DNA from: Yponomeuta sedellus
Taxonomy: Eukaryota > Arthropoda > Insecta > Lepidoptera > Yponomeutidae
NCBI GenBank assembly: GCA_934045075.1
Contig: OW203723.1
Location: 23,711,615 to 23,775,614, forward strand
DNA length: 64,000 nucleotides
Direction of reading: 5' to 3'
Shown here: positions 7,245-62,329 of the stretch, in pieces
Layout: each line of letters begins with the position of its first letter
How positions within the stretch are numbered: position 1 is the first letter of the stretch
Program-made: the position numbers and the translations under genes
Notes under the pieces: model-generated
Told to the model about the DNA's origin: nothing
The model's input: the letters and a program-made list of their open reading frames with translations, nothing else
The model's database searches: none

Positions 7245-7252
7245 TATTTTAC

Positions 7253-9618: not shown

Positions 9619-9831
9619 TATTTTACCAACAACTACCGCCATCTGCTGCCGAGTAGCGTAACAAAAGCAACAACTGTTATCTATGGCTAGAGCTAGATGG
9701 TAATCTGTGAATTTTGACAGTTGTGCTGAAAAAGCATAGACAGACTCGTTTCAGTCGAAGAACTGTCAAAAAAATGTCTGCTTGACTGATGTGATCTGCC
9801 GAAACCTTATTTGAATAACATTTTTGGAAAC

Positions 9832-14514: not shown

Positions 14515-14637
14515 AAATTATTTCGCAAAAATCTCTGAAAATCCGAAAGAAAACTCATGAACATTTTTGTGATGATGACATCACAGAATACAGATGGAGA
14601 TGGTCAGGATATGTTAAGGCAGTTGTTCGTCATTATC

Positions 14638-17009: not shown

Positions 17010-17534
17010 TCATTATCTCTATTTAGTTAGTCTGTTCTGTTATGGGTCTGTGATTCAATTTACCAAACATTGTGATTCACTAATTCCAATTCACTCACTT
17101 GGCACTAAGTCCCTATAACAGAATGAGGGCTTTTCAATGACGGCTGTCAGTGGAGTTCCACACAGACGTAATAGATGGCGCTAGCACGGAGTCCCTTTCA
17201 CAGAACAATTAAACCAAGTCCCTTTATAGTTGCTACGATTTTTTTTCTGTATCACTTGGTAGGATCACAGAGTATAAAGTTAGGAATGAGTTCCACAGAT
17301 AAGAGAGACTACATTAGTTCTCACAGAGTTTCAGAGTTTTGTATCGTCCATCGGTAGTAGTACTACTCTTTCCTTTCATAGTAGGTACATAGTCTGGTTT
17401 TTTTAAATAGTTCAACTTTCGCCTCTTACGTAGCCGTAGTAGAGTGTAGGGCTAGACCTCAAAACAATAACTAAAGCTAGACGTTCTCTGCTCTCCTGCC
17501 TAATGTAAACAACGAATTAAAATCGAGTGCAAGC

Positions 17535-23668: not shown

Positions 23669-26600
23669 CTAAGCGCCAGTCTCAGCCTGCATGGTGGCCA
23701 TGGTAGCCTCGATAATGAGGTTGAAGTCCAGCTCGTTGAGACTGGCCTTCGCGGTCAATAGATCCAGAAAAGTGTCGAGAGGAGAAATCCGCTCGCCCGA
23801 GGGAAGAGCCGCCATGCCTGGGAAACAAAGTATCAGTTGAAATCATGAAATACACTCAGAGGATGTACGAGACTTTGCTTTACCAATACAGACTTTGCCA
23901 CGCTAGATAATCTCCATAGAAAGGCTAGAGCGGACACAGCCTCATTACGTTCCGCGTTAGTACACGCCCAAAACGCACACATAGGCAAATTTGGTCCGTA
24001 TCGGGGAGGTATCAGGCGGTAATCACACGGGTTGCCCCCGGCCGGCACGCCGAGTTCAATATTATTCAACATCCACGCATGAAGATTATTGGCAAGATGG
24101 AACTATTTTTTGGGTTTTAGCAAGGGAATGGGATGCGTGGCCCAAATCTTCTCCTTGACACGGATGGTGGAGAAGCTTTGCGGCCAAAAGTCAAAGAATT
24201 TTCTGTACGTTGGTTGTTGTATACTTGTATCTATCGTAAGCTGGAGGAGGCTTACGATAGAGTGGTGAAGAATGACTTGTGATCGACACTCTATGTATGG
24301 GGTGGACAACATCTTGCTGCGAGCTCGGATGTCTCTCAATGAAGACTTCAGTGCTTGCGTTAGAATTAATGGGCTAGTTTAGCACCCGCAAGGGTGTGAA
24401 ACAGGGAAGTATCGCCCGTGGTTGTTCAATTTATTCATGGGCAGCTGCCTGACTGATTTGAAAGAGAATAACCGTGGGATAAGGATGAGCGAGCTACTAG
24501 TAAACTGCTTGTTATACGGCGATGGTTATGTTGTTTTCTCATCTCCTAAGAACTGCAGACACACGTAACAGTAATGATGAGGCATTTAAAAGGAAAGGTA
24601 TTAACATAAATGTGTGTAAGACGAAAGTAATGGTCTTTGAAAAAGATGATGAAATGTGCAAGATAACGAGCGCGGTGCTTGGCGGGCGGGCGGCTAGTGG
24701 GTGTACGTACCGGCGGCGGTGCTTGGCGGTCGGGCGGCTAGTGGGTGCACGTACCGGCGGCGGCGCTTGGCGGTCAGGCGGCTAGTGGGTGCACGTACCG
24801 GCGGCGGCGCGCGGTGCTTGGCGGTCAGGCGGCTAGTGGGTGCACGTACCGGCGGCGGCGCGCGGTGCTTGGCGGGCGGGCGGCTAGTGGGTGCACGTAC
24901 CGGCGGCGGTGCTTGGCGGTCGGGCGGCTAGTGGGTGCACGTACCGGCGGCGGCGCTTGGCGGTCAGGCGGCTAGTGGGTGCACGTACCGGCGGCGGCGC
25001 GCGGTGCTTGGCGGTCAGGCGGCTAGTGGGTGCACGTACCGGCGGCGGCGCGCGGTGCTTGGCGGGCGGGCGGCTAGTGGGTGCACGTACCGGCGGCGGC
25101 GCGCGGCGCGCGGTGCTTGGCGGGCGGGCGGCTAGTGGGTGTACGTACCGGCGGCGGTGCTTGGCGGTCGGGCGGCTAGTGGGTGCACGTACCGGCGGCG
25201 GCGCTTGGCGGTCAGGCGGCTAGTGGGTGCACGTACCGGCGGCGGCGCGCGGTGCTTGGCGGTCAGGCGGCTAGTGGGTGCACGTACCGGCGGCGGCGCG
25301 CGGTGCTTGGCGGTCAGGCGGCTAGTGGGTGCACGTACCGGCGGCGGCGCGCGGTGCTTGGCGGGCGGGCGGCTAGTGGGTGCACGTACCGGCGGCGGCG
25401 CGCGGCGCGCGGTGCTTGGCGGGCGGGCGGCTAGTGGGTGTACGTACCGGCGGCGGTGCTTGGCGGTCGGGCGGCTAGTGGGTGCACGTACCGGCGGCGG
25501 CGCTTGGCGGTCAGGCGGCTAGTGGGTGCACGTACCGGCGGCGGCGCGCGGTGCTTGGCGGTCAGGCGGCTAGTGGGTGCACGTACCGGCGGCGGCGCGC
25601 GGCGCGCGGTGCTTGGCGGGCGGGCGGCTAGTGGGTGCACGTACCGGCGGCGGCGCGCGGTGCTTGGCGGTCAGGCGGCTAGTGGGTGCACGTACCGGCG
25701 GCGGCGCGCGGCGCGCGGTGCTTGGCGGGCGGGCGGCTAGTGGGTGCACGTACCGGCGGCGGCGCGCGGCGCGCGGTGCTTGGCGGGCGGGCGGCTAGTG
25801 GGTGCACGTACCGGCGGCGGCGCGCGGCGCGCGGTGCTTGGCGGGCGGGCGGCTAGTGGGTGCACGTACCGGCGGCGGCGCGCGGCGCGCGGTGCTTGGC
25901 GGGCGGGCGGCTAGTGGGTGCACGTACCGGCGGCGGCGCGCGGCGCGCGGTGCTTGGCGGGCGGGCGGCGCGGCTCGCCGCTGAGCAGCGTGCTGGCGTG
26001 GTCGCGCGCGCGCAGCAGCAGCGCGGCGCGGTGCGGCCACGCGGCCAGCGAGCGCCGCGCGCGCCCAGACCCCGCCAGCTGCAAAAGCCGCAGCTTGCGG
26101 TCCACCGAGGCGGGGCCGTCGTCTTTGCCTGGAACGGGAGAAAATTGGAGCCACCTCTATAACATCCGTACTCTGTGAACGGAAAGCAAATTGTTGTTCA
26201 AAAGAAATATAACATTTTACATACAGGCACATACATTGCTTCTGGCCCTATACTAAGATAACCTATGTCGTGGGAACCGGAAACAACGACATCACAAACA
26301 TGTAAACTTCCAAGACCTGGACTTTTTTTTTTTTGTTTCCAGCCGGGATTCGAACCCGGGACCTCTTGCATGGTAGGCAGACGCGCTACCGCTACGCCAT
26401 AGAGGTCGACTTGGAATCTTATCATAAGCATAGATGGCAACTGATATACCTATACGGCTTAAGATGACATGACAAAAGGTAATCAGAGTGGAGGTTTTTT
26501 CCCCGCTGCCCTTTTCTCCACTACACTACGACCCGAAGGCAGCGGCTTACATTTTACGTTGACATTTAGCCACAAAACAAAAACGTTGAAATAAAATTTA

Positions 26601-29600
26601 CTTGATTTGATACAACCAAATACAACACAGTTCGGCTCACTCACCAGTTATTATGGCCTTCAGCACGTCGATATGCAGCTCCAGAACATTCCTGTGCACG
26701 TATTGAGCAAACTGCTGCGGCGGAAGTGCTCTGTATGCCAGGTAGGTGAAAAACGAGGCGAATCCCTGAGGCAGAGGGAACGCCACACTGTCAACCGCCA
26801 GGTAGTATTGCTCCAGTACTTTGAACACGATCAGAGCGTGCGTCGGATCGAGGTCGTCACTGGAATTGGTAAAAGAAGGGTTTAGTTCACAACTTCAAGT
26901 AAATGTTACCTACCTACATAAAACAGAAGAGCAACGAAAAATAACAGCACATAACACTGACCCACCCGCTCGTTCCAATTTCAAACCGGAAACCAAAAGT
27001 AATGAAACAAAACAACTCCATTCTTCTCCACTGTATACAAAGTATGTTCTGTGGCCCTTGTATACGGGGGAGAACCCCGTATACAAAGGCCACAGAAAAA
27101 ATAAAGGCGAATACCTGTGTTAACAATACATCAGCACCACACCAAAACATTGACTATAAAAAGCAGCACAAATATAATAGTTGATTTAATTCAACGAAAA
27201 TATGAATATTTCGAGAAGGAGACCAAGAGGAGGATCCAGCTGGGCTAGGCAGCGTTTGGGAAACTACGCCGAGTCTTCTCGTCATCCATACCGCAATGTT
27301 TGAAAACGAAGGTTTTCAATCAGTGCGTCCTACCTGTGATTACCTACGCAGCCGAGACATGGACACTCACGAAAGGGCTGGTCCACCAGTTCAAAGTCGC
27401 TCAGGGAGCTATGGAGAGAGCTATGCTCGGAGTTTTCTGAAGGATAGGATTCGTAATGAATGCATCCGACAGAGAACCAAAGTTATATTAGTTAGAGAAC
27501 CAGAGACATAGCTCAGAGAATCAGCAAGCTGAAGTGGCAGTGGGCTGGCCATATCTCGCGAAGAACCGACAACCGTTGGAGTAAACGTGTTTTTGAGTGG
27601 AGACCGCGACTCGGCAAACGTAGTGTCGGACGCTCTCTGACAAGGTGGGAAGACGATCTGCGAAAAACTGCTGGCAGATGCTGGATGCGGCAAGCTGAAG
27701 ACAGGGCGCTATGGCGCTCATTAGGGGAGGGCTATGTCCAGCAGTGGACTAAATAATATAGCCTGAAGAAGAAGAAATATGAATATTTAATAAAATAAAA
27801 ACAAAAACAGAATGAATATTACTGAATTTATTTATTTATTTTACTTTAAATAATGTACGCTTTTTTGTGTATAGGTGTACCTACACTAAAGCGTACCTAC
27901 TCTGCTTAAACATATTCCACATGCCGCATCGCTATTGTAGTCGCCAGAAAAAGCCGAAAACAAAATGGATACCATACCTGCACCCACACGCGTAACATTG
28001 AACTAAACATGTTTATACAATAAAACAACAGCGAAAAAAGCAGCAATCAACAATAACTCGTCTCCCCCATATATGAAGGCGAAACTCCTCTGGTTACTAC
28101 TACTACTACATACATTAAGAGAGTACATACATACCAGACTCTAGATTTCGAAAAGCAGCACAGAGAGAATCGTTTAATTTACTCAACGAAATGATGAAAT
28201 CAAAAGAGCAACAAAGAAAAACTGAACACTTTTGAATATAGGAACTATTTTCCGTCCTTGTATGAAGATACAAAAACCAACAAGAATTGTACAAAACAAC
28301 AACGTAAAAGAACGGCACATAACAAGAACGTAAAAGGCGCAAAACAACAACGTAGAAGAACGGCAAAAAACAACAATGAAAAAGAACGGAACAAAGCAAA
28401 AACGAGAAAGAACCACACGAAACAACAACCAAAAAGAACGGCACAAAACAACAACCAAGAACGGTACAAAACAACAACCAAAAAGAACAACTAAAAAGAG
28501 CGGCACAAAGCAACAACCAAAAAGAACGGTACAAAACAACAACCAAAAAGAACGGCACAAAGCAACAACCAAAAAGACGGCACAAAACAACAACTAAAAA
28601 GAACGGCACAAAACAACAACCAAAAAGAACGGCACAAAACAACAACCAAAAATAACAACTAAAAAGAACGGCACAAAACAACAACCAAAAAGAACGGCAC
28701 AAAACAACAACCAAAACGAACAACTAAAAAAAACGGCACAAAACCACAATGAAAAAGAACAATACAAAACAACAACGTAAAAGAACACCACAAAACTACA
28801 ACCAAAAAGAACGCCACAAAACAACCACCAAAAAGAACGGCACAAAACAACAACCAAAATCATGAGCACACACAACAACCGGTGTTATTCCCCGTACATA
28901 AAGGCGAATCCCCTCTGCGGCCCCGCGGGCAGCGCGCCGACGGGGCGGCACAGCGCGCGGCAGAGCGCGCGCGCCGCGTCCAGCTGCGCGGCCGCCCAGC
29001 GCGTGCCCGCCGCGTGCGCGTGCGCGCCGTCGCCGCCCGCGCGCACCAGGTGCCCCGACACCTCGCGCAGGTTCTGCCCCAGGGTCAGGCGTTACGTTCG
29101 ACTTGTGCCGTCATACATACGTATATATTACACGGGTCTAATGGTACCTCGCGCAGGTTCTGCCCCAGGGTCAGGCGTTACGTTCGACTTGTGCCGTCAT
29201 ACATACGTATATATTACACGGGTCTAGTGACACCTCGCGCAGGTTCTGCCCCAGGGTCAGGCGTTACGGTCGACTTGTGCCGTCATACATACGTATATAT
29301 TACACGGGTCTAGTGACACCTCGCGCAGGTTCTGCCCCAGGGTCAGGCGTTACGTTCGACATGTGTCGTCATATATACTTAACACACGGGTCTAAGGGCA
29401 TCTCGCGGAGGTTCTACCCCCAATATCAGACGAAACGTTCAACTGGTGTCGTCATACAAAATTTTCTATTGAAGTGCATAATTTTTAAACTTTAATGAGT
29501 CGATGGCCAACTGGAATGCTATAGTACCTCGGCACTAAGTAGCCTTTCCCAGCCAAGTAGTAGTTTCGGCGCTTAGCCTCCATCGATGGTACAAAAAAAT

Positions 29601-32600
29601 TAAGACTAGGCCAGGCGCGCACTACGATATTTTTGTCGCAGAAATATAACGTACCTATGAGTTATCATGTCAGTGCGCGCATAAGCTACAAAAATATCGC
29701 AGTGATTTTAAAATTGTGATTTGCGCGACTACTCGCGACGCGATTGTCGTAATACTAAACTGTAGCCTATGGAGTTGTACGGCTCCGCGCGCATTTCGAT
29801 AATAAAATTGCATACACCGATTTTTAGTATTTTTATATTTAATTTGAGTCCAACAATTCTCAGTAATTTGTCAAATGTTTGAATCTTTATTCGATAATAG
29901 CCACAGAATTTTTTGGAATATAGCCGAAGATCGTTGTATTTTAGATAAAATAAACCTTTGACACATCTTTCTGCTGTGAAAGGATGAATTCAATATTGAC
30001 GAATACCTTCTCTCTTTTTTTTCTTCTCCTCAGAAGTAAAGCAAGACAGGCAATTTGTACGAAATCCATGTGGGAAATGAACAATCCATCGATTTTTTCA
30101 TCGCAGTGCGCGCAGTGATTTTTTTACGATAATAAACAGCGCGATTTTAAAATCGTGTCGCAAAAGTTGAAATCGTAGTTGAAATCGCGCCTGGCAGTTT
30201 CTACCCCCAGTATCAGGCGTTACGTTCAACTTGTGCCGTCATACATACTTATATATTAGACGGGTGTTAATGGCACCTCGCGCAGGTTCTACCCACCGCC
30301 GGCCGGACTGACAGCTCGTTAGTTGTATATCGAAAGAGCGGTAATAGCGGAGCGGTAGAACACCGGCCTCTCAATCGGGAGGTTGTGGATTCGAATCCCG
30401 TGGGCATGTACCAATGACTTCGTTGTCGCAGTTATGTACATATATGAAGTTATAGTAGCAATACATACTTTTTATAAGAATTAAATGTGTTAGAATGTGC
30501 GACTGTGATGCTAGATGTATCAGCAGCCTTACACGTGCTGTAGAGTCAATAAACGCCATACAAAAGTAGTCTTGGTTTTCATAATTTGTAAAAGATCATC
30601 ATCAGTAATTTGACGCCCACTTTATGACAGTAGCCTGCTTCTTGGTTTTCCAAGCCTCCTTTGAACTTAAGTGATGAATAAAGTCCGATTATTTATTTTT
30701 AATTACATATTATCATTATATAATATAACTAGCTGGCCCAGCGAACTTCGTACCGCCTAACAGTCGATTCTTAATTTTTTACTTTTTTCGCTCCGTATAT
30801 GGATAATGCAATTTATTAGACTCACCGCAGCGACGATGTGCTCCTGCTTGCTAGCGGTGCAAATATCGAGCTCGTGGAAGGGCAGCGGTTCGTTAGCGGC
30901 GAGAGAGGTGCGGCGAGGAGGCACCGCGCCCACGCACATAGGGCCGGCCGCTTGCGGCGAGTGCGGGGTGCTGCACCGGGATAGCGCCTCTGGCTTTGGA
31001 AACAAGACAAAGGTTAGGTTAGGCACGGCGTGTTGCAGTTGTGTCATGGAGGCCACACACGCTAGGGTATGCGTGATGGTTTAAGCCGTACATGCATAAC
31101 CGACACGCAAGCCCTAGCGTGTATGTGATAAAACTGTACAGTTATCGGTGCATGTACATGCAAACGAGCAAATATCAAGCGCGAGCATAACAGTTCTCAG
31201 TTTTAGTTGTCTGTGAGGGCGGAAGCTCACGCGCGCGCTACGTCGCGTCGCTTCGAAAATGGCGAGTCGCAAGCGCAATGTCACTTTAGTTAGAGGAATT
31301 TATAGAAATTTTTAAGTCGGAACCATGTCTGTGTAATCCACTGATGTATACCTCAATTAATTTATTAAATTTACGTGGGAGAAACGCTTTCTTTTCAATA
31401 ACCAGGGCTTAGACCATTCAGTGCGATCTCTTTTTCTTTTTCTGTCCTGCAGAACAAGTGTTAAGCCAAGTACAGCTATCACATCGTCGTCGTCCATAGT
31501 TTGGTAGGTATATACCGTACACGGGCGTCCTACACACACCGTAACGTAGCTAAACTGAGAGTTTGTAGAAACTGTGCATGCAAACTGAACGTGTATGTGT
31601 TCTATGAAACTCGGTTATGCATGCAAGGTTAAAACCATCATGCATACCCTATCGTGTGTGGCCTCCATCAGGCACGGTTTGTCGCGGTTGTATCTCTGGC
31701 CTCGCCCGAAACGCGACGTGGCCTTGCCCGAAACGCGACGTGGCCTCGCCCGAAACGCGAGTTGGCACCGGGGGTTTTAAGTCAGTAATTACATTACCAG
31801 TTCTTGTTTCAAGGTGCTGGTATCCATGAAAGATTCACGGTTTATCACTACGCGATGACGCATTTTGTAAATTTTTATGATGTCTAATATCAATTTTAAT
31901 GTATAACATAGTGTAGGTATGTACAGTTCTTCGGTAGATATAAGCTCACTATGCTATCGGTAACACGGTCGGCAAGTAGGAGCAGTATTAGTGTTACACG
32001 GAGTGGGAGTGCCTGCGTTGTCCCATATCTGTGGCGCGAAGCGTGTAGTAAGGGCAATACTTTACAAACCTATTTAGAGGCTTAAAATTCCACCCATGCA
32101 GGGATTCGAACCCGCAACCTCTGGCTATCCGTGCCAGCGCTCTACCAATTGAGCTAATGGGCGACTCACCGGCATCAGTGAAATTTCGAACCTCTTTACA
32201 CTATTCTCTGTATTACGTACAGAATATCACATGCCATGTGTGGTATGTGTCTGTCAGTCACATGCCACAGGTGAGGTGGGTGTGTTTCCCCGTCTCCCGG
32301 CTCGTTTACCTGGTAGCAGTGGAGGCTGACGCGCAGCTTATGGAGCACGCTGTCCGGCTGGAAGCGCGGGCGCGCGCGTCGGGTGAGCGCGCCACACTAG
32401 CCTCTCGCCTGCCCTACGCCGCTTGGGTTTAGTCAGTCACACGCCACAGGTGAGGTTGCGTGTCTTATAGGCCGGCTGGAAGCGCGGGCGCGCGCGGCCA
32501 TTGAGCGTTCCACACTACCCTCTCGTCTGCCCCACGCCGTTGGGATTCAGTCAGTCACACGACATAGCCACGAACAAGAGGTGTGTTTCACCGTCTCCTG

Positions 32601-35600
32601 GCTCGTTTACCTGGTAGCAGTGCAGCTTCTGGAGAACACTGGCCGGCTAAAAGCGACCATTGAGCGCTCCACACTAGCCTCTCGCCTGCCCTACGCCGCT
32701 TGGGTTCGGCCAGTCACACGACATAGCCACAAACGAGAGGTGGGTGGGTCTCCCCTTCTCGTGGTCCGTTTACCTGGTAGCAGTGCAGGCTGACGCGCAG
32801 CTTGTGCAGCACGCTGTCCGGCTGGAAGCGCGGGCGCGCGCGTCCGTTGAGCGCGGCCCACAGCCGCGTCCACAGGTCCTCGGCGAAGGGGCACACGCGC
32901 TGCCGCGGCGCCAGCACCACCACCGCGCTGTTCCACAGCTTCTCCTGGCTCACTGACACTACCACGTCGCGCACCTGCGCGTCACACCTTGCATATAAGT
33001 ACCGAATGTTTGCAAAGGTACATAGTACAATTTAACGTAGTTTAGCAGAAAGGTTCCAACCCACAGTGAGTTTTGAGATATTTCACTTTTTAGGTTAAAG
33101 CTGATTCACGCTCTCGATACTGTGGGTTGGTGTAACATGTGCTATAACTTTGCAAATACGCATCGGATATCTTCGGAGTATGGCCTAACCTTCCTCCGAT
33201 GCAGGAAGAAACCCGTGCCCCAGCAGTGGGGACATACAAGGGTTGATAACGATAACGATCGGATCTCTATGAACGTCTTTGGTTCAGTGATCATTTTGGT
33301 ATATTAACTCAAAAATGACTATGTTGTGGGTTGGAACCTTTTTGCTAAACTACGTCCCATAGGTATTCCTAAAAGCCGGAGAATGGCATTCGAAATGGCC
33401 GTTATGGAGAATGAACTTGTGTCGAAAATAGCCGAACCACCATTTTTGGCAGTCGGACCAGCCCCGGAGCACTATTCCTCAGCTCCCGACCTGACTGAGA
33501 TTGCTGCTAATATTACCTCACGGAAGAAGCGGAAATTCGATGAGGACTCGGGTTCGTCGACTTTATCTGCCTTAAAAGAAACTCTTGAATCTCTTGTCAA
33601 GTCCCAGGAAAAGCGTCTAGATTTACTTCAGTCCACTATCAATACCATTAAGGACCAAAACATCGAGCTCACCAATAGCGTAGTTATGATGTCAAGCAAA
33701 TATGATGAGTTCCTTAAGCGAATCTGTCAGTTGGAAACTGAAAGACTGGACGACAGAAAGACCATCCGAGCACTCGAAGATAAGCTTGAGCACCTCGAGA
33801 GGAAAAGCCGGGCCCCAGGATTAGAAATCCGTAATATAGAGAAACCTCCTCGAGAAACAAAAGACGATTTATGTGACGTAATTGTTGGGTTGGGAAAAGC
33901 GGTAAACATTGATATTCAGAAGTCTGACATCAAAGATGTGTACAGAATGGTTTCTAAAAACAATTCCCATCCAATTGTCGCAGAGCTAACCTCTGTTATA
34001 AAGAAGGAAAATCTCTTAATGGCGACAAAATCCTTTAATAAGTCCAAAAAATCAGGTGACAAACTAAATAGTAGTCATATTGGTCTGAAGCAGCCCACCA
34101 AACCGGTTTTCGTTTCGGAGACGCTAACATCCAGGAATCAGAAACTATTTTTCATGGCAAGAACGTTCCAAAAGCAATCCAACTACGCTTTTTGCTGGAC
34201 ATCTCACGGCGTCGTCTATATACGTAAGGAAGAAAATGCACCCCAAATTAAGATATCTTCAGAGGCTGACCTTGACAGTCTTCGTAAAGATAAACAGTGA
34301 CTAGTAACGCTGCCGCTACTACCTTCAAGTGCACGCACTATTTTGGTTTTACATTGTAAGCATAACTGTAAGTTTTTTTATCCTTCGTATGCAACACTAC
34401 AAGATACTACACACATACACAAAGCATTAGAACATACTACAGCCACACACCCACACCCACTAGCCCTTACACGAATCACAATCAATGTAAGCCCTACTAG
34501 TATGAACTTGAAATTCCATAGCTTAGCCCACATTTTAAATAGGCAAATATTCTGTTCAATTATTCCTCTAATTAAAATTCGCTCCTTTTAATACTATAAT
34601 AGCTTCAGAAATAGACCATTCCAATGACATTATATGTTACAATATTGATGACCCTGCGAATTGCTCCACAATACTCGCTTCGAATAGATCAAGCTCAAAT
34701 ACACTTTGTGTCGTAACTGTTAATATCCGCAGTATTAGGCAAAATTTTGACGCGTTTCTAGTTTTCGTTAGCAGGCTTGAGATAACAGTGGATATTTTTG
34801 TCCTAACAGAGTGTTGGTCTAGTGACAATTATTCACCGCCTAACATAAATGGATACAAAATGTTTCAAACTAAGATAAATCTGAACCAAAACGATGGGAT
34901 AGTGGTCTATGCAAGTGAAAATCTCAACGTTTCGGCACACGAGCCGAATATGGTGGAGGGCAATTGTCTAATAATTAACATTTTGGACCAATACTCCTTG
35001 ATATGTTCGTACCGTCCGCCATGCTTTCGTAATCCATCAAACTATATTGACTCACTTGACGTCATCTTAAGCAATATTCAATCTAAAAATATCATCTTTA
35101 CAGGCGACATCAATTTAGATATTCTCCCAGATAACGTGAATAACCATACTAATAAATACTTGAATCTCATGGCTTCATATGGACTCAAATCGGGCATAAA
35201 TCGTCCAACAAGGCAAAAGACTTGCATTGATCATTTTATGGTCAAAACTCAAAAAAAATGCCAAACGCTCATATTTGATGAATTAACAGATCATTCACCT
35301 ATTCTCCTTCACATTAGCAATGCGCAAATCAAAACCAATGCTGTCCCTCATGAAAAAGTCAAAGTAGATCTACTTGCTGTTCAGGACTGTCTAAAGGAGG
35401 AGACATGGGAGGATTATTTTTCTATAACCGACGTGAACAAAGCGGCGGAAAGTCTTACCAACAAGATACAAGCTATAGTTAATAAAAATACCACTGTAGC
35501 TAAGATTCCACGGAAAAAATTGCCACTTAAACCATGGATCACAATTGGAGTAGTTAGATCTATTCGTAAAAGAGACAAACTGCACAAAAAGATGAAAAAT

Positions 35601-38600
35601 AAATTAAATGACGAACAACTGAAACATGAATATAAAACATATAGAAATATCTGTAACAAAATAATTAAAACTCTGAAAAAGCAATATTATGAAACCGAAC
35701 TAGAAAAAAATTTTGGGAATATTAAAGAGACATGGAGAATTATAAAAGAAGTGTGCAGCATGAATAAGAGTAAATTACCTTCAAATGAACTTCTAAGCAT
35801 TAGGGATAGTAAAATAAAATCACTGGACGAAGTTAACCAGTATTTTTCTACTATAGGATATAAACTTGCCAAAACTACTCTTGATAAAATAAATTGTACT
35901 GATAAAGATCTTGCAGCAACTGCCAAAACAAAATTTGCGCCGCTAAAATCTATGTCTCTTTATATGACTGACGCATGTGAAATAGCATGTATTATACGAG
36001 GACTTAAATCCAATAGCGCTCCGGGGTGGGATAGTATCGCTACTACTATGGTCAAAACTTTTTGTAACTTCCTAGCTGAACCAATCTCTTACCTCTGCAA
36101 TCTTAGCTTAGAGCATGGAGTGTTTCCTGTTCTATTTAAGCGTGCAATTGTTTGTCCGATCTTTAAATCTGGTGATAAGTACCTTCCCACCAATTATAGG
36201 CCGATCTCTTTGCTGACCGTTCTTACGAAAATCCTCGAAAAAATTGTAAATAAGAGACTGGTCAACTATGTGGAGAATCATCACATGTTAGGAAAAAACC
36301 AATATGGATTTCGGTCGGGCAAATCCACAGAGGACGCGGTTTTGAATTTTACTAGCACAGTTGCCTCATACCTCGACAAGAAACAAAAGTGCGTAGGAGT
36401 CTTTCTGGATCTACAGAAGGCATTTGATACAGTTTGTATTCCAATTCTACTCACTCGCCTCGAAAACTTTGGAATAAGAGGAATAGCCCTTCTGTGGTTC
36501 CAGGACTACTTAACTAACAGACAACAGCGTGTCCGCATAGACAATCATTTAAGTAACGACACGATCTGCTCATACGGAGTCCCGCAAGGCAGTACACTTG
36601 GACCGACATTATTCTTAATCTACATTAATGAACTATGCAATACTGAACTGCGGGGCGCCGACATTCAGATGTTTGCAGACGACACTGTCATTCTGTTTCA
36701 CGCTAAAACCTGGGAAAGTGTGCGCCAACAAGCCGAAAGTGGTATGAGTACTGTTTCCACTTGGCTTGAGAACAGTCTCTTGACATTGAATGTAAACAAA
36801 ACAAAGTACTTGTGTTTTGGCATAACCTGCGCAAACAACCCTGATAAATTTGAATTGACTATACACACATATCCATGCAACCGCAATAGCTTATGTCACT
36901 CAAACTCACACAAATGTCACTGTGAAACTCTGACCAGGGTTTCGAGCATCAAGTATCTTGGGGTTACTATTGATGACAGACTTAGTTGGGGTCCTCACAT
37001 CTCTGCAGTCACTAAGCGAGTTCGAAAGTTAATTTACATTTTTAAAGACCTACGACAAGTTGCGAGTCACAAACTTTTGATACAGACCTACAAGGCACTG
37101 GGTGAATGTATAATGAGCTATTGCATCTGCGCTTGGGGAGGAGCCTCAAAATCCTATCTTATAGAGGCAGAAAGGGCGCAACGGGCGGTTTTGAAAACTC
37201 TTTTGTCCATGCCGTTTCGACATCCCACTACTGATATTTATGATAAGTCTAGAGTTCTTACAGTGAGAAAACTTTTTATTTATCAATGCGTCAGAAGGTA
37301 TCATAAGACTGTAGTTCCATTCCTCCCAAAAACACATAAAAGAGTTGACCGCTGTCCGGTTCCTTTTACCAAAACCTCATTCGCACAACGACAGTATAAC
37401 TTTTTGGCACCTCGATTTTATAACACACTTAATGCTTTAGGCCCAATAAAGAAACACACAAATTTTAAAATCAAGAAAATAATCAAAGACTGGCTATATC
37501 CACTTAATTATGAGGAAACTGAAGCACTTTTGCTCACTATAAAATAAAATAAAAATCAATTGTAAACTCCATACGTTGCCTCGTATGCAACAATACATAT
37601 ATATATATATCCATATATAACTACTAATATCAACAATTATTTCCAAAATATCACTATTAACCTAAATAAATATTACCATATTACCATTGTACGAAGGGCT
37701 TCCAAATACACACACACATACGCGCGCGCACGCACACACACACACGCACATACACACACACATACACACACACATACACACACACATACACACACACATT
37801 ATTGCATACAACATAATAATTAAACTAATCATTTCATTCATTTTTAATCACTAGGTCTTTTTGAAATGTCCTAGCTTCTCTGTTTTTGCTTTGTATAAAA
37901 TTTATAACTCTTTGTTTTACTTTTTTGTATGGTACATTGTTTAGCACTAATTTGCACTTGATTGTTACACTTAGTTAAGGGAAGACACTTGCTCTTGACG
38001 CACAGGTTATCCTAGTTCGAGAGCAAGGGCTTCATAAATAACTGTGGCAAATTGAATTTCTCAATAAAGATATTTCTATTTTCTATTTCTATTCATGCCG
38101 TAAACGGGCTGCGTCACTGACGCAGCGAGCACGTGGTAGCGCTAACAGCAGCCTACGTGCAATTGCCGATAGGCCTGGTTGTGCAGTCTGGGCACACTTA
38201 ATGCAGCTACATGGAAGCAAAAACTGCTCACAGACTTTGCAACTTTAGTGTACATAGTGGAAATAAGTTTTGTTGTTTTTGTACTAACATAGGTTAGATT
38301 ATACTAACAACTTTATGGGTGTTTTACGCCTGAAATAAATAAGTAAAATAAAAAAAAAGAAGCAATAAAGTATTTTTACCAGCGCAATGAATAAATAAAT
38401 ATTCATGGACATATTACACAGATCTCGTTAGCCCTATACTAAGTACAACTAAATGACTTTTATTACTCGACGATAGATTTAACACAATGAATACATACGA
38501 GTAGATAACATCCAAGACCCGAGACAAACTAGAAAAGGTTCGTTTCCTAGTTTGACCCGGCCGGGGATCGAACCCGAGACCTTCAGTTTTACAGTCAGCG

Positions 38601-41600
38601 TGCCAAACTGCTGCGCCACCGAGGCCGTCATTCATCATTGTTTCATTCATTCATGAAGATACTGATTATTTTACTGAGTCATCGATCAAGATTTAGTGAT
38701 TCACTAAGTAAGTCAGTGAAGCGCTCGTGGCCTAGTGGAACCGAGGAATTAGAATCAATAACTAAGGTTAAGCAACAACAAGCGTGGTCAGCTGTTGGAT
38801 GGGGATGTGTTTCAGAGCGCTTCCGTGATTCGCAAGGCAAGGTAAGCAGTTGATGCCTACTGTCATATAATGGCAGTTGTTAAGCCATGTCAGAGGCCCT
38901 ATAGGTGGCTTGATAACTTCTGGACCGCAACTGCCTTACAATCCTCCACCAACCCGGACTTGGCCCTCGTGGTGGAGTATGGCCGAACCTTCCTGCGATG
39001 CAGGAAAAGACCCGTGACCCAGCAGTGGGCAAATACAAAGGGTTGATACCAAGGAACTCATTAATTGAGCCGCTAAAATATTACGATACCGATTTATTAA
39101 GTAACTGGTTTACCGAGTAACTGTTCTGATTCACTGACCAATGAGACACATATCGACCGATCGAAGTTACTATGGCATATAACCAGTAAAAGATGCATAA
39201 ACGGAAGTGCGCGCAGCGACAGCCGGGTGATCCCGTGTGCCGCGTTTACTAGGTATTGTTACATAGCGCGGTCATTCATTTATCACGTAGTATTTTTACC
39301 ACTGATTCATGGATTGACACTCCGGTTCATGTGTTAAGAAGTAACTGATACACTTCGTTTTGTTATTGATTAATTTATTCACTGATTCATAGACTTATTC
39401 ATTATTGAGCCTCCAAAGCCAACTCAAGCCTACTCCATCAAAAACAATGTCGCGTTTGGGTAATTCCTTCGCCCATCTAGTGTTAAGTGAAGGTGCCTCT
39501 AGACCCTTTCAAAATCATATCTATACGTAGACAAAGGTCAAAGTTCATATAACCTCCTAAGTCGTGACCTTAGAAATAACAATCGAAAACCGTTGTTATT
39601 TTCAAGATACGGATTTAGCAAGGATGTTGGGTAAAATGTCCTTGGGATTTAGGAAGTAAATTTAGTGTAGCCTTTGAACGAAGGACACACTGAGTCACTG
39701 ATTCACTGACCTTGACCTGAGCGAAGTTGTGATGGCACGTGAATGGCAGCAGATCCATAAGCGGCACTGCGGCGGCGGGCAGCGACCGCCTGGTGATGGC
39801 GTGCGCCGCGCCCACCAAGTACTCCTGCATCGCGCGCTGGAACGAGCCCAGCCCCTCGCGCTGGTTCAGGCACATCCACGAGATCAGCTGGAAGACGCGA
39901 GGAAGTGTTACGGCTGCTTTGGCATCCGGCATTCGTAAAGTCACGCCTATGTCCCAAAGGGGTAGGCTGAGACGAACACAACTCTTGCGCGTCATCAACA
40001 TTCTATATTCGAGGTTTGAAACTGACAGTTTTAGAACAAACTTTGGGGCCAATACTTTTGTTATATTATATAGTGGGTGTCGGCCTAGAGAATAGCACCA
40101 AACCAAATTCTTCCCGCGGGTGTCGTAAAAGGCGACTAAGGGACACAAACCGGGGGTTGGGCAGCAGCGCCCCCTGCAGTACAATTCCACCAAACTGCGA
40201 CCCCCAACCCGCATGCTCAGCGTGGGGAATATCGGCATTACCCCCCAATTATGGAACAACCTTCCGCCATTGCTCTTATTAGGGGAGGGCTATGTCCAGC
40301 AGTGGACTAATATAGCCCGAAGAAGAAGAAGAACTATAATAGCGCCAAGTTTAACACATCTGACAGAAAATGCCATATAGTGAAAATTCGATACTCTTAA
40401 ATTCAAAAGCTTCCTTCCTTCCTTACCCTTTCCACAGAGGAACTCAGGGATGCATACAATGTATGTATAAACCACAGCTCTAGCACCAAGGTTGGTTCCA
40501 ATACCAAAACACGGTTTGCTGTCGCAGTCGATATAAAACATGTTTTAAATCCACGTCTAAATCCAGCCTATTATAGTCTGTTAGCTTTTAGAATATACCT
40601 CGGCTACTATCGGATAGAAAGTAAAAGTGTCATATTAGTTCCGAAATATCGGAACTAGTATTAGTTCCTGCTTTGTATAAATGTAAAAGTGTCGTATGAC
40701 ACTTTTACATTTATACAAAGCAGGAAGTAATATTACACTCGTGTGCTTTCGGCGAAAACCGAAGACTACTCTAGAGCCCGAGGTATATTCTAAAAGCTAA
40801 CAGACTACGTCCTTTTGTGCAGGGCATACACATTATCATTGAATTTTAAATAGGGATTCAATGGTACTATGTAAGAGACAGAGATTAAGTAGTCTCACAG
40901 ATTAAAAAGAGAAAGTCTCACCTCTTCAGCCAAGTCAAAGTTTCCATCATGCAGCAGCAAGTAATGTAATATCGCCATCTTGTTCTCCACACAGCACATA
41001 CTCTTGAAAGCCGCGACCAAATCCTTCTCCGGTACATTTAACGTAACCACGTCCAAGGTATTGAGGTCGACCATGGCATTGGGCCCCCAGCCCAGGATTG
41101 GCGCCAAGCTTGGCCCAGCGTCAGTTTCTTCGCTTGGCAGTACGATGTGGTTGCAAGGCTCATGGGTCACGCTCACGTCCAATAGGTGGGTGAACAGCAT
41201 GGGAATGTTTACAAGGAGGTGGTCGTCTGAAACGAGATGAGCATTTCAAAACAAACATCACAGATGCACACAAAACATTGCAGCCCATGTGAATCTGTGA
41301 CCTTTTTATATCTGGCCAGAGTGTAATGTTAAATTAGTCTTCCTCCGGAATGTGGTCCACTTAACAGATTCTTCCGTAAAGTCCAAGTCTTAAAACTACT
41401 GGACTCTACTCACCAACACACAGGAAGTAGGGGCTTAGGTCAAATCGCGTCGAAGGATCTGTCCATACATCAGTTGTCGAAGTCCTAGACTTATCGGAGT
41501 GTACTCGACAGCATACAAAGTGTAGGGGTGTATGTCCAATCGCGTCAAAGGACATGGTCATAAATCAGTTGTCGAAGTTCTAGACTTATTGGAGTGCACG

Positions 41601-44600
41601 CACCAGCATGCAGGGTGTAGGAGTGTAGGTCAAATAGCGTCAAAGGGATTGTCCATACATCAATTGTCGATGTCCTAGACTTATCGGAGTGCACGCACCA
41701 GCATACAGGGTGTTGGGGTGTAGATTAAAACGCTTCAAAGGACCTGTCCATAAATCAGTTGTCGAAGTCCGACTTATCGACGACGGCCTCGGTGGCGCAG
41801 CGGTTTGGCAAGCTGACTGTAAAACGGAAGGTCTCAGGTTCGATCCCCGGCCGGGTCAAACTAGGAAACGAACATTTCTAGTTTGTCTCGGGTCTTGGAT
41901 GTTTTCTATGTATTTATTGTATTAAATCTATCGTCGAGTTAGCACCTGTAACACAAGTCATTTAGTTGTACTTCGTATAGGGCTAACGAGATCTGTGTAA
42001 TATGTCCATGAATATTTATTTATTTATTTTTTTTATTTATCGGAGAGTACTCACCAGCATACAGGGTGTAGGAGGGGCGCAGACTCTTGGCCAGCGACCA
42101 GGGCAGGTCAGGGACCACGCTGTGGACCACGCAGCCGTGGTGCAGCACCGTCACGGAGTACGCGAAGTTCACGCCGCTCTCCTTCAGTTCTGCGCTGTCT
42201 TCTAGCGGGAGAGAGGACGTGGAGTCGTCTAGGGGCTGTAGGAAACGGACGGGATGGAGGAAATGTTGTTTATACTCAATAAACGAGTATATTGAGTATT
42301 AAAAAAATTGACACACAAATAGAAACTATGCAGTACTTTTTATGGTTCCGAAGGGCGCCAAGGACCCTATTAATAAGCCTACCACGACTGGCCCTTTTTT
42401 TATTTATGAATGTTAGACTGTTATTTAGGAATGTGTTACACCGTGATAAGACCTTAAAATACCTCAAGAGAAATAGAAAACCATCGTTATTTGCAAGTTC
42501 AGGACTTAGGAAAATAAAGAGCTTTTCTCTTAAGCGGTAACAGGTAGTCAGTTGGGATTTTTACAGAGTGTTATTCGGCGGATTGCCGACCAACATAAAA
42601 AGATATGCAAATGTATACATAAAAGAGTTTTCCATTATAGTATAACCACGTTCTGCGAGTATAAGCGGGCAAATGTCAGTCGAACGAACTCATTGGTAAG
42701 AATACCGAATTGAGTGAAAACAAACACATGTTTTTAATAAGGAACCATTGTACTCGTGTACTATTTCCTTCCGACTGCGAAATAACATTCATAATGTCTC
42801 ATCATCAACGGCCCACCGCTGCGCTCTGCTGAATACACGGCCAGGTCTCATAGTCTCTTGCCGTCCGCATCCACGGACCTTCCGCCGACTGAAGACCTGT
42901 GCAGACGAGGGACTTTTGTCCCCAAGGGACAAAAGTTCCTGAATCATAAAAAAAATTCTCAGAGTACTTGTCGCGGACTCAACGCCTACGGTGTGCGGTC
43001 ATTTGTTCCCCGGAAATTGAGTAAAGAATATGCTATGGAAGCAAATATTCTGAGATTACATGTAATTGTAATTTACATGAAGTTGAAAAAGAAAGAAAAC
43101 ACCGAACTTTTGTCCAGTCCGGTCTCTTGATATCCTCGGTAACTTGGGGGACTTTTTGTACGCGGTACTTTTAGTCCTTCATGTAAAAATAAAAAAAAAA
43201 TGATAAAATATTGTTTATTGCACAAAAAAAAAACAAGAATATAAAATCCAAAGAATTTTGCATACGTATACACCATAAATATCAGAATTAAGGTGCATGC
43301 TATGAGTTAAGTAATAGAAGTTCCAGGGGTCCCCACACTAGGCTAGGCCTGTAACGTGGGGAACCAGTTGTATATAAAAGCGAAAACAAATTAAATGTTA
43401 TTAAATATTAGCTTTCACAATTAATTTAATTTAACAATTGTGCGTTATTCGATACATTTTATAAGAGATCTATATAGACGGACAAAAAAGTACCCGGGGG
43501 ATAGTCCCTCGTCTGCGCAGGCCTTCAACGATGTCATCTTCCCATCGGGCTGCTGTTCTGACCACTGACCTCTTACTGTTATCGACCTCCACTCTGTGCT
43601 ATGGTCTAACTGCCGACTTGTCACCTAGCTGGGTCTCCTACCCATTATTTCCGCCTCGAGACTCTTTCGCCAATGTCGTCGAACTTATAGTGCTTACCAA
43701 AGTTTCAGTCCAGGCACGTACCTTATAGAGATAGTGATGACAGATGCAAAGGACCCCATGCGGGTCCGCGACTATTTGCAGGTCCAGACTGCAGTCGTGC
43801 AAACGCAGCGGTACCGGGTCGTCTTCGTACTCGCCGCACGCCGCGCCGCCGCCCCAGCTCGGCAACTGCGGCAGGCTTAGCGGGATGTTCAGCTGGATGA
43901 AGGGAATTAGGGGCTAAGACCATGATGTTAAGGTATAATTTGAAATAAACCGGCGCATAGTGTTATCTGGGTTCAGCTGGACGTTGGAACTGAGGCAGTA
44001 AGGTCGAATATGAAAAACCCTTCAGCGGACGGTCCGTCTTCGTACTCGCCGGCGAAGACAGAACTTGGCGGAATGTTCAGCTGAATAAGGGGATTAGGAG
44101 CTAAAGTTAGGACAGACAGGTCGGATATGTAAAGGGCAAGCGCGTCGTTTCATCTGGGTTCAGCTGGATACATTAATCGGCAGCTCGTCTTGGTTCGTCG
44201 GGAAACATTAATAAAGGCTATAGCCTGCCTGTACGTAATGAAGGCTATAGCTGCCTGTACGAAATACAGAGAATAGTGTAAATAGATGTCGCTGCCTGTA
44301 CGTAATACAGAGAATATTGTAAAGAGGTTCGAAATTTCACTGATGCCGTGAGTCGCCCATTGGCTCAATTGGTAGAGCGCTGGTACGGATAGCCAGAGGT
44401 TGCGGGTTCGAATCCCGGCATGGGTGAAATTTTTAGCCTCTAAATAGGTTTTTAAATTTGTTCCTTAGCACGGGTTAGTGCATTAAAAATAAAAATAGTG
44501 TAATCATGTGGGTACAGTGATATCGTTCCGATGTTAAACCTAACTGCAAAGTAGGTAGTCGGGGCTGTAAGTATTGCAATTTGCTTAAGTCAGATGTCGC

Positions 44601-47600
44601 TGCCTGTACGTAATACAGAGAATATTGTAAAGAGGTTCGAAATTTCACTGATGCCGTGAGTCGCCCATTGGCTCAATTGGTAGAGCGCTGGTACGGATAG
44701 CCAGAGGTTGCGGGTTCGAATCCCGGCATGGGTGAAATTTTTAGCCTCTAAATAGGTTTTTAAATAGTGTAAAGAGGTTCGAAATTTCACTGATGCCGGT
44801 GAGTCGCCCATTAGCTCAGTTGGAAAGAGCGCTGGCACGGATAGCCAGGGGTCGCGGGTTCGAATCCCGGCATGGGTGGAATTTTTAGCCTCTAAATAGG
44901 TTTTTAAAAAAGGCTATAGCATCAAAGTCGAATTTGTAAGACTCTCGCAACGGGATCTGCCTTACAAGATCGGAAGCTGCGGCAGGCTTAGCGGGACGTT
45001 CAGCTGGATAAGGTGAAATAAGAGTTGAGGTTATGGCAGTAAGGTATAATTAAAAAATGACCAGCGTGTCCTTCTTTGTTTCTTTCTTTGTATCTGGACC
45101 TCAAGTGAGAACTGAAAGCTGTGGCATCAAGCTCGAATTTGAAAGACACTCGTGTGGCGAGCACATGTCAAGTCTGCGCGCGCACTACAAACTCCAACAT
45201 TCCTGCATCGCGCAATCAAAGTGTTTCAATGACATAGCATAAATATAACTATACTATTTTTATTTTTAATGCACTAAGGAACAAATTTAAAAACCTATTT
45301 AGAGGCTAAAAATTTCACCCATGCCGGGATTCGAACCCGCAACCTCTGGCTCGGATAGCCAGAGGTTGCAGGTTCGAATCCCGGCATGGGTGAAATTTTT
45401 AGCCTCTAAATAGGTTTTTATAAATATAACTTCCGACTAACAATAGTTGGACCGGCCGTCCCCAGGCATACGATCTGCCTGGCGGGAAATATCCCTATAT
45501 AGTGGAAGAGCACGATCACCCGCTCTTCCGTATAGGTACTCGCAACGGAATCTGCCATCCCAGCTCGGGTTCTGCGGAAAGCTTAGCTGATGCGGATGTT
45601 CAGCTAGATAATGTGACAGAAGAGCTGAGCTTATGCCAGTAGCTCTAATTAAAAAAATATGAGCGAGTCCTTCTTTGTTTGTAGCAATACCTCAATTCAG
45701 AGCTGCTGTAGCATTAAGCTCGGATTTGGAAAACACTCCAGCGGACTCGATCGTCTTCATACTCGTAATTACTGTAAATGAAAAGACTCATTTCGGTCTC
45801 ACATCGTTATCCACTCAATAGAAAAAATCCACTCAAGGTCTTGTCTAATGCTCGCAAATCCGCAGGACATGAATGACACGTTCTTACGGGAGGGCCATCC
45901 CTATCGTTGTACTGACCATTTAAGCAAAGATAAAATGCAGACAGAGTTGTGATGATCCCGTTTCATTCCGAACTCGTGAATTTGGTAGTCAGATGCGCGC
46001 TCTGGGGTTAATGCGAGTCGCAAGTGGTCGAGTCAAGGATCGCATATTTGCAAACGGGGTCACAAGATTGATCTCTCTCGTTAGATTGCAAGACGGGATG
46101 GGAGACAAGTAGGTAGATCGTCAAGAGATATATTGGATGAATTGAAACGCTATTTTATGCTGTCTATGTTTGTGTGGTGCAAGATTTAGAGTATTGAAAG
46201 TATAATGTGATCTTCGAATAGACCACCTGATGCCTCTGAATGTCTACATTTAAATATTTTGGATAGATATTCGTCAGTTTACCCTTCTTGGCTTCCCATC
46301 GCTGGTGCTAAACAATAAGCCTAGCGTTAGGCTTAGTAGATTTAGTTTAAGCCGCAGCTTGTAACTACTCATTAGACAGAAACCGGCAAGAAACTCGTCG
46401 TGTCGTGCTGTATCTATATCGGCAAACCTACTTAAACCTACAGCAAACCTACAACCGATTCCACGTATGGGAGTGCGCGCTCGCGTCCGCGGAATCGCGC
46501 ACGGTGAGAAACTAACTACAGGTGAACAAGCAGACATGCGCGATTGCATGCGCCATGAGAATCCACTGGCGGACGAGTAGAGATGCGCGATGCATACGCA
46601 GAAACGCGGACTGTAAAAAGAACATTTCTTCGTCCGAACTATCCATCATTGACAACACAAGCACAACCTACACAGCAGCCAGTCGCCGACTTTCGATTCG
46701 TCTGTAATGAACGCACACGGAAATAAATGCGAGTCAGCGCGATTCGACGCGGTTCCAATGTAGTCGACGCCAGCCTTAAAGTTAGAATCTAGATGCGGAC
46801 GAGCACGGGCAGCCACGCACCGCACCGAGTCTCTAATGGTATAACAGTGCCACAACAGAAGTCGACAGAAATAGTATATGTAAGGCAACACCGGTAGGTC
46901 CACAAATTCAAAAAGCGATCCACAATCATGCAACGATAAAGAAAACCTCTTCTACTTCTTTAACATTATTATGTTAGCCGCTGCATAAGTCCGACGATGT
47001 TCACCTGGGGACGTCCGTCTGTATATTTTATTACGGAATAAAAGAGTATTGAAGGCTGGAGTGTAGAGAAGTAAATAGTCTTACCACAGTCTCATGCGGC
47101 AGCGAGGCGTGGAACTGCAGAGCGGAGAGTGTGGGCGTGGCCTCAGATGGTGACGTCACTTCCTCCCCCTCCGCGAAGCTCTGCGCCGGCGACCGGTAGT
47201 GGATGTAGTAAAGCACCTGGCGAGTAAAGAGTGAAAAGTATTCATACAATATTATATTAATCGACAGCCCGCCCACAGCTGGATATAAGCCCACATCCCA
47301 TCACGCCATCTTCATATTCTAAGAGTAGATACAGACGGCACAAAAAGCTATTTATTTTTATTTTTTGATAAACAGTATAACCAATACGTGGCATTTTTCC
47401 GAGCGCTTCCGTGCTTCGCAAGGCACGTTAAGGCGTGGTTGCCGGCTGTCATGTACCTAATGGCAGTCGTTAAGCCATGTCAGAGGCCTTATGGGCGGCT
47501 TGATAACTTCTGAGAGTAAGGCCCGCCACTGATTTACAATCCTCCACCAACCCGGTCTTGACCCCCATGGTGGAGTATGGCCTAACCTTTCTGCAATGCA

Positions 47601-55086: not shown

Positions 55087-55948
55087 TGGTGGTGGCATCG
55101 GATGTTGGCTTGCCCTTGGAAATCAAACAGTATAAACCTTCAAATCGCCCAAGAAGATATGATTACAGAAATTTAAATTCCTTAGGCCTAAAAACTATGG
55201 TGAGAAAATCTTTACTTAGCAGTTTCTCATAGGATTAAAATGAGTACCTCTGAAAAAATTACAGACCTTTTAAACCCTCTACAATGTACCCATTCACATT
55301 TGCAACTATGATTCGGCCCACGCCAGTTTCCTTTTTACATTGTCAAAATAATAAGGACCATTAATTAGCTACTAATGACTGAATTATGATTTTGGGAATA
55401 CCTTGCTTGGTATAGTGAATGGTTTAATTAAAGATAGGTAATTGATAGTGAATTCTGTTTTATTTTTTTATTTTTCATGCTGCCATTAGAATATAGAGGA
55501 AACAAAAAGAGGTAAGCTGTGCGTCGTTTTTTACTATTTGTATTAATTAGTTTAACAGTTATTTTTCAAAGTCGTGCAATTCCAAAGAGTAACTGCGTGA
55601 CATTTTCAGTGAATTCCGTTTTAAAAGTGTAACTTTAGTTTGTCTGTGGCACTGAGGTAATATTGGGGCCGCTGACCCCTTTTTTGCAATGTTCATTGAC
55701 CTCATCAGAGCCGTCGTGTTTGCAGATGTACGCTATAATTGTTGCTGACTTATTACTTTCCAGTTTTACGTAAGTGTACTTTATTACAGAAGTAGAATGA
55801 AGCCCTAGTTGCAAAGCTACTTCAGTTATTTTCTATAGTTTTGATGACTTATACCTTCGGAGATATTTTGTGGAACGTTATTTTATTAAAGATCAGGCTA
55901 TCTCTAATTCAATCGTATCTCAGTCATGCCTTATCGTATTGTTATTAA
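55087..55948. other. Cyclin E intron, no feature recognised
   Basis: AT-rich, no supported ORF, no repeat family seen. Confidence 0.4.
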
Positions 55949-62082: not shown

Positions 62083-62329
62083 CGGCCTCGGTGGCGCAGC
62101 GGTTTGGCACGCTGACTGTGCAACCGAAGGTCTCGGGTTCGATCCCCGGCCGGGTCAAACTAGGAAACTATCTTTTCTAGTTTGTCTCGGGTCTTGGATG
62201 TTATCTATGTATTTATTGTATTAAATATATCGTCGAGTCAGCACCTATAACACAAGTCATTTAGTTGTACTTAGTATAGGGCTAACGAGATCTGTGTAAT
62301 ATTGCCATGAATATTTATTTATTTATTAT
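62083..62329 (+). mobile_element. tRNA-like SINE (family C)
   Basis: Best-preserved of three copies: head CGGCCTCGGTGGCGCAGCGG, B box GGGTTCGATCCCCGGC, CTAGTTTGTCTCGGGTCTTG, tail ATATTTATTTATTTATT. Confidence 0.85.

Follow-up and report, generated by a model that had tools for sequence, protein, structure and literature searches.

Minisatellite-like tandem duplications of exon-intron boundaries are described in the globin genes of lancelets, where they were named mirages after the Adh3 case (PMC3087553). In the portions of the lancelet papers that we draw on, the repeated units are 10-160 bp long and involve either 5' or 3' boundaries, two haplotypes carry six versus three units, and splicing is apparently undisturbed (PMC3087553), while PGBD5 is reported with two repeated boundaries and TnC is mentioned alongside it (PMC3902484). 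Here we examine the pigeon/GSAP gene in a 64,000-nt stretch of the lepidopteran Yponomeuta sedellus (assembly GCA_934045075.1, contig OW203723.1, positions 23,711,615 to 23,775,614 of the forward strand; called the window below), in which six of 26 splice junctions have intronic copies covering both sides of the junction. We think it likely that these arrays are mirages, with exon 8 as a single-copy case: tandem duplications made at the DNA level whose unit happened to span one junction and which then expanded and homogenised, reflecting a local liability and not a process aimed at junctions. The initial annotation of this DNA held that no described process predicts such copies, a statement overtaken by the lancelet mirages already in print (PMC3087553, PMC3902484).

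As in the lancelet repeats, the unit spans an exon-intron boundary and is of minisatellite size (44, 51 or 58 bp at the exon 13 donor, 86 bp at the exon 11 acceptor, 95 bp at the exon 6 donor and 83-104 bp near exon 5), donors (exons 6, 9 and 13, and the single copy at exon 8) and acceptors (exons 5 and 11) are both affected, and many copies carry splice signals and sit in the intron (PMC3087553, PMC3902484). Judged from sequence features, the pigeon/GSAP arrays share the structure of mirages, exon 8 excepted: its copy is single, lies at an offset of 566 bp and is not filed here as a mirage array. The two copies at exon 9 differ as well, in that they do not form a regular array in Tandem Repeats Finder (TRF). 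Moreover, the host is an insect and its six junctions stand at clearly different divergence within one gene, whereas lancelet BflGb6 and BflGb9 are described with one affected boundary each and PGBD5 with two (PMC3087553, PMC3902484). Among the papers listed by our searches, judged by titles and the openings of abstracts, we found no insect example and no gene with six such junctions, which is weak evidence of absence; the repeat type is known but rarely reported, and what is unusual is the number of affected edges in one gene. The lancelet globins come with reverse transcription PCR and haplotype evidence, whereas pigeon/GSAP is known from one sequence alone.

Two other classes of repeat invite comparison. 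Ordinary intronic minisatellites likewise consist of units in head-to-tail order, show higher-order periods and have neighbouring units that are nearly identical; in pigeon/GSAP, however, the units hold a splice site together with coding bases, and the functional exon edge is itself one unit of each array. Tandem genomic duplication has in turn been reviewed as a source of introns (PMC3443670) and proposed as one in Drosophila (PMC2891723), and junction-spanning repeats themselves have been put forward as material from which introns could arise (PMC3087553), the examples that we draw on being scattered lancelet genes. In outline, the Rogers model of intron gain by AGGT duplication is alike in that a short intragenic tandem duplication yields extra splice signals; it differs in that a duplication inside an exon gives rise to a new intron, whereas in pigeon/GSAP existing junctions are copied into introns (PMC3443670, PMC2891723).

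Splice-junction copies in the pigeon/GSAP introns

The gene was modelled with 14 exons, GT/AG at all 13 introns and an open frame of 900 residues. Exon 12 contains the Pfam domain PF14959 (gamma-Secretase-activating protein C-term; E=2.2e-25), and the joined protein used as a query returned 251 proteins at E<=0.001; among the 120 listed, the first 45 are 56-72% identical to the model and are lepidopteran or unnamed, with no close relative in the list. Forty of these proteins were aligned to the model, and at the exon 4/5 junction 16 of the 17 rows shown (from moths, butterflies, a cockroach, a beetle and a bee) carry the motif LNIPLSLP or one very similar to it, the Bombyx row being gapped there. 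Because this motif is conserved, we place the exon 5 acceptor at 43892, which gives the 900-residue protein with its frame intact. The 14-exon frame is thus open and aligns with its orthologs, and is treated below as a predicted gene model.

Probes on each of the 26 splice junctions were aligned to the adjoining intron over a distance of about 4 kb, which, taken from either side, does not take in the most distant part of intron 8 (6.7 kb). The scores were compared with dinucleotide shuffles of the same intron. In the first scan (80-bp probes, 40 shuffles, with the exon 5 acceptor probed at an edge 27 bp further downstream than 43892), matches covering both sides of the junction reached z scores of 19 to 45 at the exon 5 acceptor, the exon 6 donor, the exon 9 donor, the exon 11 acceptor and the exon 13 donor; the exon 11 donor scored 5.5, the exon 8 donor 4.2 and the remaining junctions below 2.7. 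In the second scan (120-bp probes, 100 shuffles, exon 5 acceptor at 43892) these five junctions scored between 19 and 58 and the exon 8 donor 3.6, while the exon 11 donor reached 10.4 on intron bases only and the other 19 junctions stayed at or below 2.4.

A third, long scan extended the probes to as much as 170 bp on the exon side and 100 bp on the intron side, with 60 shuffles and a threshold of the mean plus 4 standard deviations; as the exon 13 array directly adjoins its exon, the target for that donor started 10 bp past it. Seven of the 26 junctions exceeded the threshold, and at six of them (the acceptors of exons 5 and 11 and the donors of exons 6, 8, 9 and 13) the copies cover both sides of the junction, with best z of 11 to 53. 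Since the exon 8 donor scored only 3.6 with 120-bp probes, its case rests on the long scan. No intronic copy was found by the long scan at 19 of the 26 junctions within the searched range. The junctions that had been named from the letters alone as carrying copies (exons 5, 6, 8, 9, 11 and 13) were therefore all recovered, and in all three scans the copies take in exon sequence along with the real splice site and score above shuffled intron.

As controls we used 15 hand-annotated junctions of neighbouring genes in the window, a small sample drawn from Rtf2 (PF04641), a cyclin gene (PF00134) that we take to be cyclin E, an ABT1-like gene, so named on our own reading and with only a sub-threshold RRM match, and the gene upstream of a DUF4790 exon. 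In the long scan, run here with a fixed 3-kb flank in place of the intron, all 15 had z of 2.5 or less, which agrees, within so small a sample, with the earlier impression that the other genes lack such copies. With 120-bp probes 12 of the 15 fell below 2 and the other three gave 3.8, 4.2 and 5.2, without 8 bp of match on each side of the junction in any of them; a z of about 5 from a short match is therefore no proof of a copy. For example, donor 2 of the cyclin gene (54995) has a short match 0.5 kb downstream at 55506-55536, considered and rejected as a case outside pigeon/GSAP, and its z of 5.2 with 120-bp probes drops to 1.2 in the long scan, so that it is probably a chance match. The contrast between none of 15 control junctions and six of 26 in pigeon/GSAP is suggestive only.

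Donor and acceptor copies of unequal divergence

The copies range in identity to their functional edge from exact (exon 13) down to about 62-65% (exons 5 and 8); their positions are collected in Table 1. At exon 13 the array is 1274 bp long and contains 25 donors including the real one, all of them GGTACGT, at spacings of 44, 51 or 58 bp, with the four units next to the exon being of the 58-bp form. The last 42 exon bases (25928-25969) together with 60 intron bases match a stretch of the array exactly, and since the match extends into the exon, the coding sequence and the array may be evolving in concert. TRF also reports higher-order periods of 248 and 299 bp, which suggest turnover of the array. 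The unit forms differ by 7-bp steps; carried over into the exon, such a step would be expected to alter the frame.

The exon 11 acceptor has five copies, at 29159, 29245, 29331, 29413 and 30200. The innermost 86-bp unit contains the functional acceptor, and its intron part is 97-99% identical to the next two units and 71-89% identical to the outer ones. At exon 9 two copies retain GT donors (32515-32670 and 32221-32427), and the piece at 32470-32514 holds exon sequence only; the intron parts of the copies are 72-81% identical to the functional edge, and the copies are 73% identical to each other. At exon 6 GT is kept in three of the four units, and identity in the intron part is 62-69% to the functional edge (over 26 columns only) and 62-83% among units. 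The real exon 6 donor is separated from the rest of the first 95-bp unit by a dispersed repeat, on both sides of which stands CGATAA, which looks like a target-site duplication.

Older still in appearance are the copies at exons 5 and 8. Three copies align to the exon 5 acceptor (44022-44168, 44927-45114 and 45500-45679; 62-65% identity in the long scan), and a ten-base pattern of the edge recurs five times, at 43976, 44080, 44163, 45003 and 45603, spaced 83-104 bp near the exon; at 43976 and 44163 the exon side consists only of CTGAACCC. Exon and intron parts stand at 50-68% identity, the intron part being 51-62% identical to the functional edge, while the copies near 45.0 and 45.6 kb are 76% identical to each other. 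Sequences resembling tRNA-Ser are interspersed with these copies, and a 133-bp palindrome (95%; 45288-45420) made of two inverted tRNA-Ser-like pieces lies in their midst. The exon 8 donor has one copy, 64% identical over 194 columns (z 25 in the long scan) and 65% identical in its intron part, with a donor dinucleotide read as AT in the long-scan alignment and as GT in the unit comparison.

The exon 11 donor, at which the initial annotation had seen a hint, is left ambiguous, since its strong matches are mainly to an intron minisatellite. A match spanning -20/+8 at 28065-28092 gave the z of 5.5 with 80-bp probes, and to this extent the hint stands; in the longer-probe scans only one of five hits enters the exon, by 14 bp, and it has CA at the splice dinucleotide. 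The minisatellite lies between that -20/+8 match and the donor; the array ends 38 bp from the donor, and sequence similar to it starts 17 bp past the donor. This junction may be a seventh case, surviving as a remnant.

Two readings of such a pattern bear on the identity and extent of the copies. The first is an assembly artefact from collapsed or repeated reads, for which the 1.27-kb exon 13 array, with its many identical units of 80% guanine plus cytosine (GC) and hence a copy number prone to misassembly, and the near-identical inner units at exon 11 would be the natural suspects. The copies at exons 5, 6, 8 and 9 are only about 60-80% identical to their edge along most of their length and some have other sequence inserted among them, so that an artefact can hardly account for the pattern. 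The second is that the copies are remnants of whole exons duplicated in tandem, formerly alternative exons; the copy at exon 8 does fall within exon-like sequence that is free of stops for 53 codons, and its alignment takes in up to 128 bp of that exon. At the same time, the periods at exons 6, 11 and 13 are shorter than their exons, and the aligned copies take in between 17 and 128 bp of exons that measure 171-201 bp, none attaining the end of the 170-bp exon probe or the opposite boundary. Duplication of whole exons, which would be expected to leave copies with both boundaries, was rejected on these grounds and is very improbable.

Table 1. Pigeon/GSAP exons with copied junctions, the copies and associated repeats (positions in the window)
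Feature	Position	Strand	Evidence
pigeon/GSAP gene, predicted, 14 coding exons, 900-aa frame	23669..51711	-	exon model, PF14959, lepidopteran pigeon matches
Exon 5, real acceptor at 43892	43722..43892	-	ortholog alignment, intact frame
Exon 6, real donor at 42054	42055..42235	-	exon model
Exon 8, real donor at 39710	39711..39887	-	exon model
Exon 9, real donor at 32773	32774..32974	-	exon model
Exon 11, acceptor 29073 within innermost repeat unit	28898..29073	-	exon model, unit comparison
Exon 13, real donor at 25927, last 42 bp an exact match to array unit	25928..26128	-	exon model
Degraded exon 5 acceptor copies and tRNA-Ser-like repeats	43893..45690	-	alignments, pattern search
Dispersed repeat between exon 6 donor and array	41782..42028	-	relatives at 38386-38629, 62083-62327
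About four 95-bp units with exon 6 end and donor	41411..41779	-	TRF, alignment
Single diverged copy, up to 128 bp of exon 8 end and 65 bp of intron	39091..39272	-	long-scan alignment
Exon 9 end and donor copies plus exon-only fragment	32221..32670	-	long-scan alignment, unit comparison
Exon 11 acceptor copy furthest out, with about 0.7 kb between it and the other units	30181..30294	-	long-scan alignment
86-bp units holding 17 bp of exon 11 and its acceptor	29057..29486	-	TRF, unit comparison
13/26-bp minisatellite near exon 11 donor, membership doubtful	28270..28859	-	TRF, scans
Exon 13 donor array, 25 donors	24670..25943	-	TRF, donor count

Elsewhere in the window, a 2.4-kb direct repeat (94% identical; 7252-9619 and 14637-17010) flanks the DUF4790 and ABT1-like exons. 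Within pigeon/GSAP itself, intron 9 holds an inverted 58-bp pair (90% identical; 31046-31103 and 31611-31668) and intron 7 an 80-bp palindrome (92.5%; 40656-40735).

Placement and base composition of the duplications

Self-BLAST of the window after removal of dispersed repeats, restricted to local duplications on the same strand, yielded nine loci in 64 kb, five of which span an annotated junction by a strict test, where 0.81 to 1.16 would be expected (P 3.8e-4 to 2.1e-3). With placement probabilities specific to each unit, and leaving exon 8 aside, five of the seven loci within pigeon/GSAP span a junction (P 3.5e-4). In sequence terms, the excess of junction-spanning loci is beyond what chance placement would give, and their concentration in one gene is unexplained by it.

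Several results weigh against duplications that merely happened to span a junction. Seven of the nine loci fall within pigeon/GSAP, and by the strict test five of these seven span a junction (P 4.8e-4); when exon 8 is counted with unit-specific probabilities, the figure rises to six of seven against 0.87 expected (P 1.3e-5). Adding three intronic arrays found by TRF only gives six of ten (P 3.9e-5), and on this set edges taken as two, three or four times more prone to duplication return P of 0.002, 0.018 and 0.08, so that even a three-fold bias leaves a residue. The copies at exons 5, 6 and 8, at 45-46% GC, are moreover of ordinary composition. Two properties of the figures themselves qualify them: the unit length at exon 5 (190) and the probabilities for exon 8, the locus at 27159-28198 and the three TRF arrays were assigned by us, and all placement P values take the locus as unselected, though it was picked for its oddity.

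How much of the excess is real can be questioned from this last property. If duplications were uniformly random, an apparent excess could follow from the choice of an odd locus combined with the longer recognisability of copies of constrained exons; the copy at exon 8 would indeed go unnoticed but for its resemblance to the exon edge, and P values of about 1e-5 to 2e-3 weaken once many genes are examined. Most loci, however, can be recognised from their intronic copies alone (the units at exons 6, 9 and 5 and the arrays at exons 11 and 13), and hence do not depend on exon constraint. Such ascertainment as the whole explanation strikes us as possible but rather doubtful.

Conversely, the excess could be taken at face value, with exon edges made duplication-prone by breaks, R-loops or stalled polymerase at junctions, in a process tied to transcription or splicing, so that arrays would start at the junctions and not land there. 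The six of seven loci that span a junction once exon 8 is included, and the recurrence in one gene of duplications of very different divergence, are what such a process would produce. Against it stand the 19 clean junctions of the same gene, the 15 control junctions blank in the long scan, and a GC skew that does not favour R-loops: on the coding strand the mean skew is -0.14 at the six copied junctions and -0.02 elsewhere (P=0.27), being negative at five of the six and positive (+0.14) only at the exon 11 acceptor. We regard this alternative as unlikely. Repair of R-loops, proposed in the initial annotation as one candidate cause, was in turn rejected, there being no general coding-strand G-skew at these junctions.

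The other candidate cause named there, replication slippage at GC-rich exon edges, fared better in part. Exons with copies are GC-richer than those without (0.71 versus 0.56; exact Mann-Whitney P=0.008, six versus eight exons, post hoc), with a weaker contrast when GC is centred on the junction (P=0.06), and this lends mild support to an unstable, GC-rich locus. As a general cause GC-rich slippage was nonetheless rejected, in view of the ordinary composition of the copies at exons 5, 6 and 8.

Origin of the arrays and their meaning for the gene

The reading that we favour, that of mirage minisatellites, would run as follows. A tandem duplication arising at the DNA level has a unit that spans one splice junction, and most such duplications would then expand and homogenise through unequal exchange or slippage. 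The copy joined to the exon body would be the one spliced and kept by selection, the other copies being intronic and drifting. Duplications confined to an exon, or taking in the whole of one, would affect the protein sequence and be removed, leaving as survivors those that are purely intronic or span a single junction. The geometry of a one-junction duplication together with the constraint of the reading frame would suffice, whatever the mechanism, for donor copies to extend downstream and acceptor copies upstream. The outward growth of the arrays from exon into intron, pointed out in the initial annotation, thus has the direction described there, and is not a separate fact in need of its own cause.

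Use of the copied sites in place of the real ones would be costly to the protein. Substituting three exon 6, two exon 9 and four of the 24 exon 13 donor copies, or five acceptor copies each at exons 11 and 5, led in every case to an early stop in the conceptual product. When a donor copy is used, the stop falls in the first intron bases, ahead of any copy, and for this reason errors of one to four bases in the positions tested at exons 6 and 9 are immaterial. We infer that the real sites are used in splicing, that the copies are decoys to be ignored, and that the exon-adjacent site is kept by selection.

The unequal divergence among junctions suggests recurrent events rather than one burst. 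Under the favoured reading pigeon/GSAP would owe its excess to a local liability of long standing, for which its GC-rich exons are a plausible basis, and not to a process that targets splice sites. It seems quite improbable to us that splice junctions, of this locus or of the genome, are preferred start points of tandem duplication, through a process coupled to transcription or splicing that acted repeatedly on one gene and reached its coding sequence (the last 42 bp of exon 13).

Taken as locally recurring mirages, the copies in this one insect gene look like a time series, with six junctions of unequal divergence that include fresh arrays (exons 13 and 11), ageing ones (exons 9 and 6) and relics (exons 5 and 8). 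Such junction copies may become false exons in gene prediction, as the authors of the PGBD5 study suspected for copies in their own case (PMC3902484). At the same time, pigeon/GSAP offers a place to study how the spliceosome passes over as many as 24 decoy donors beside the real one, whether coding sequence is homogenised by arrays of this kind, and whether mutation concentrates at exon edges.
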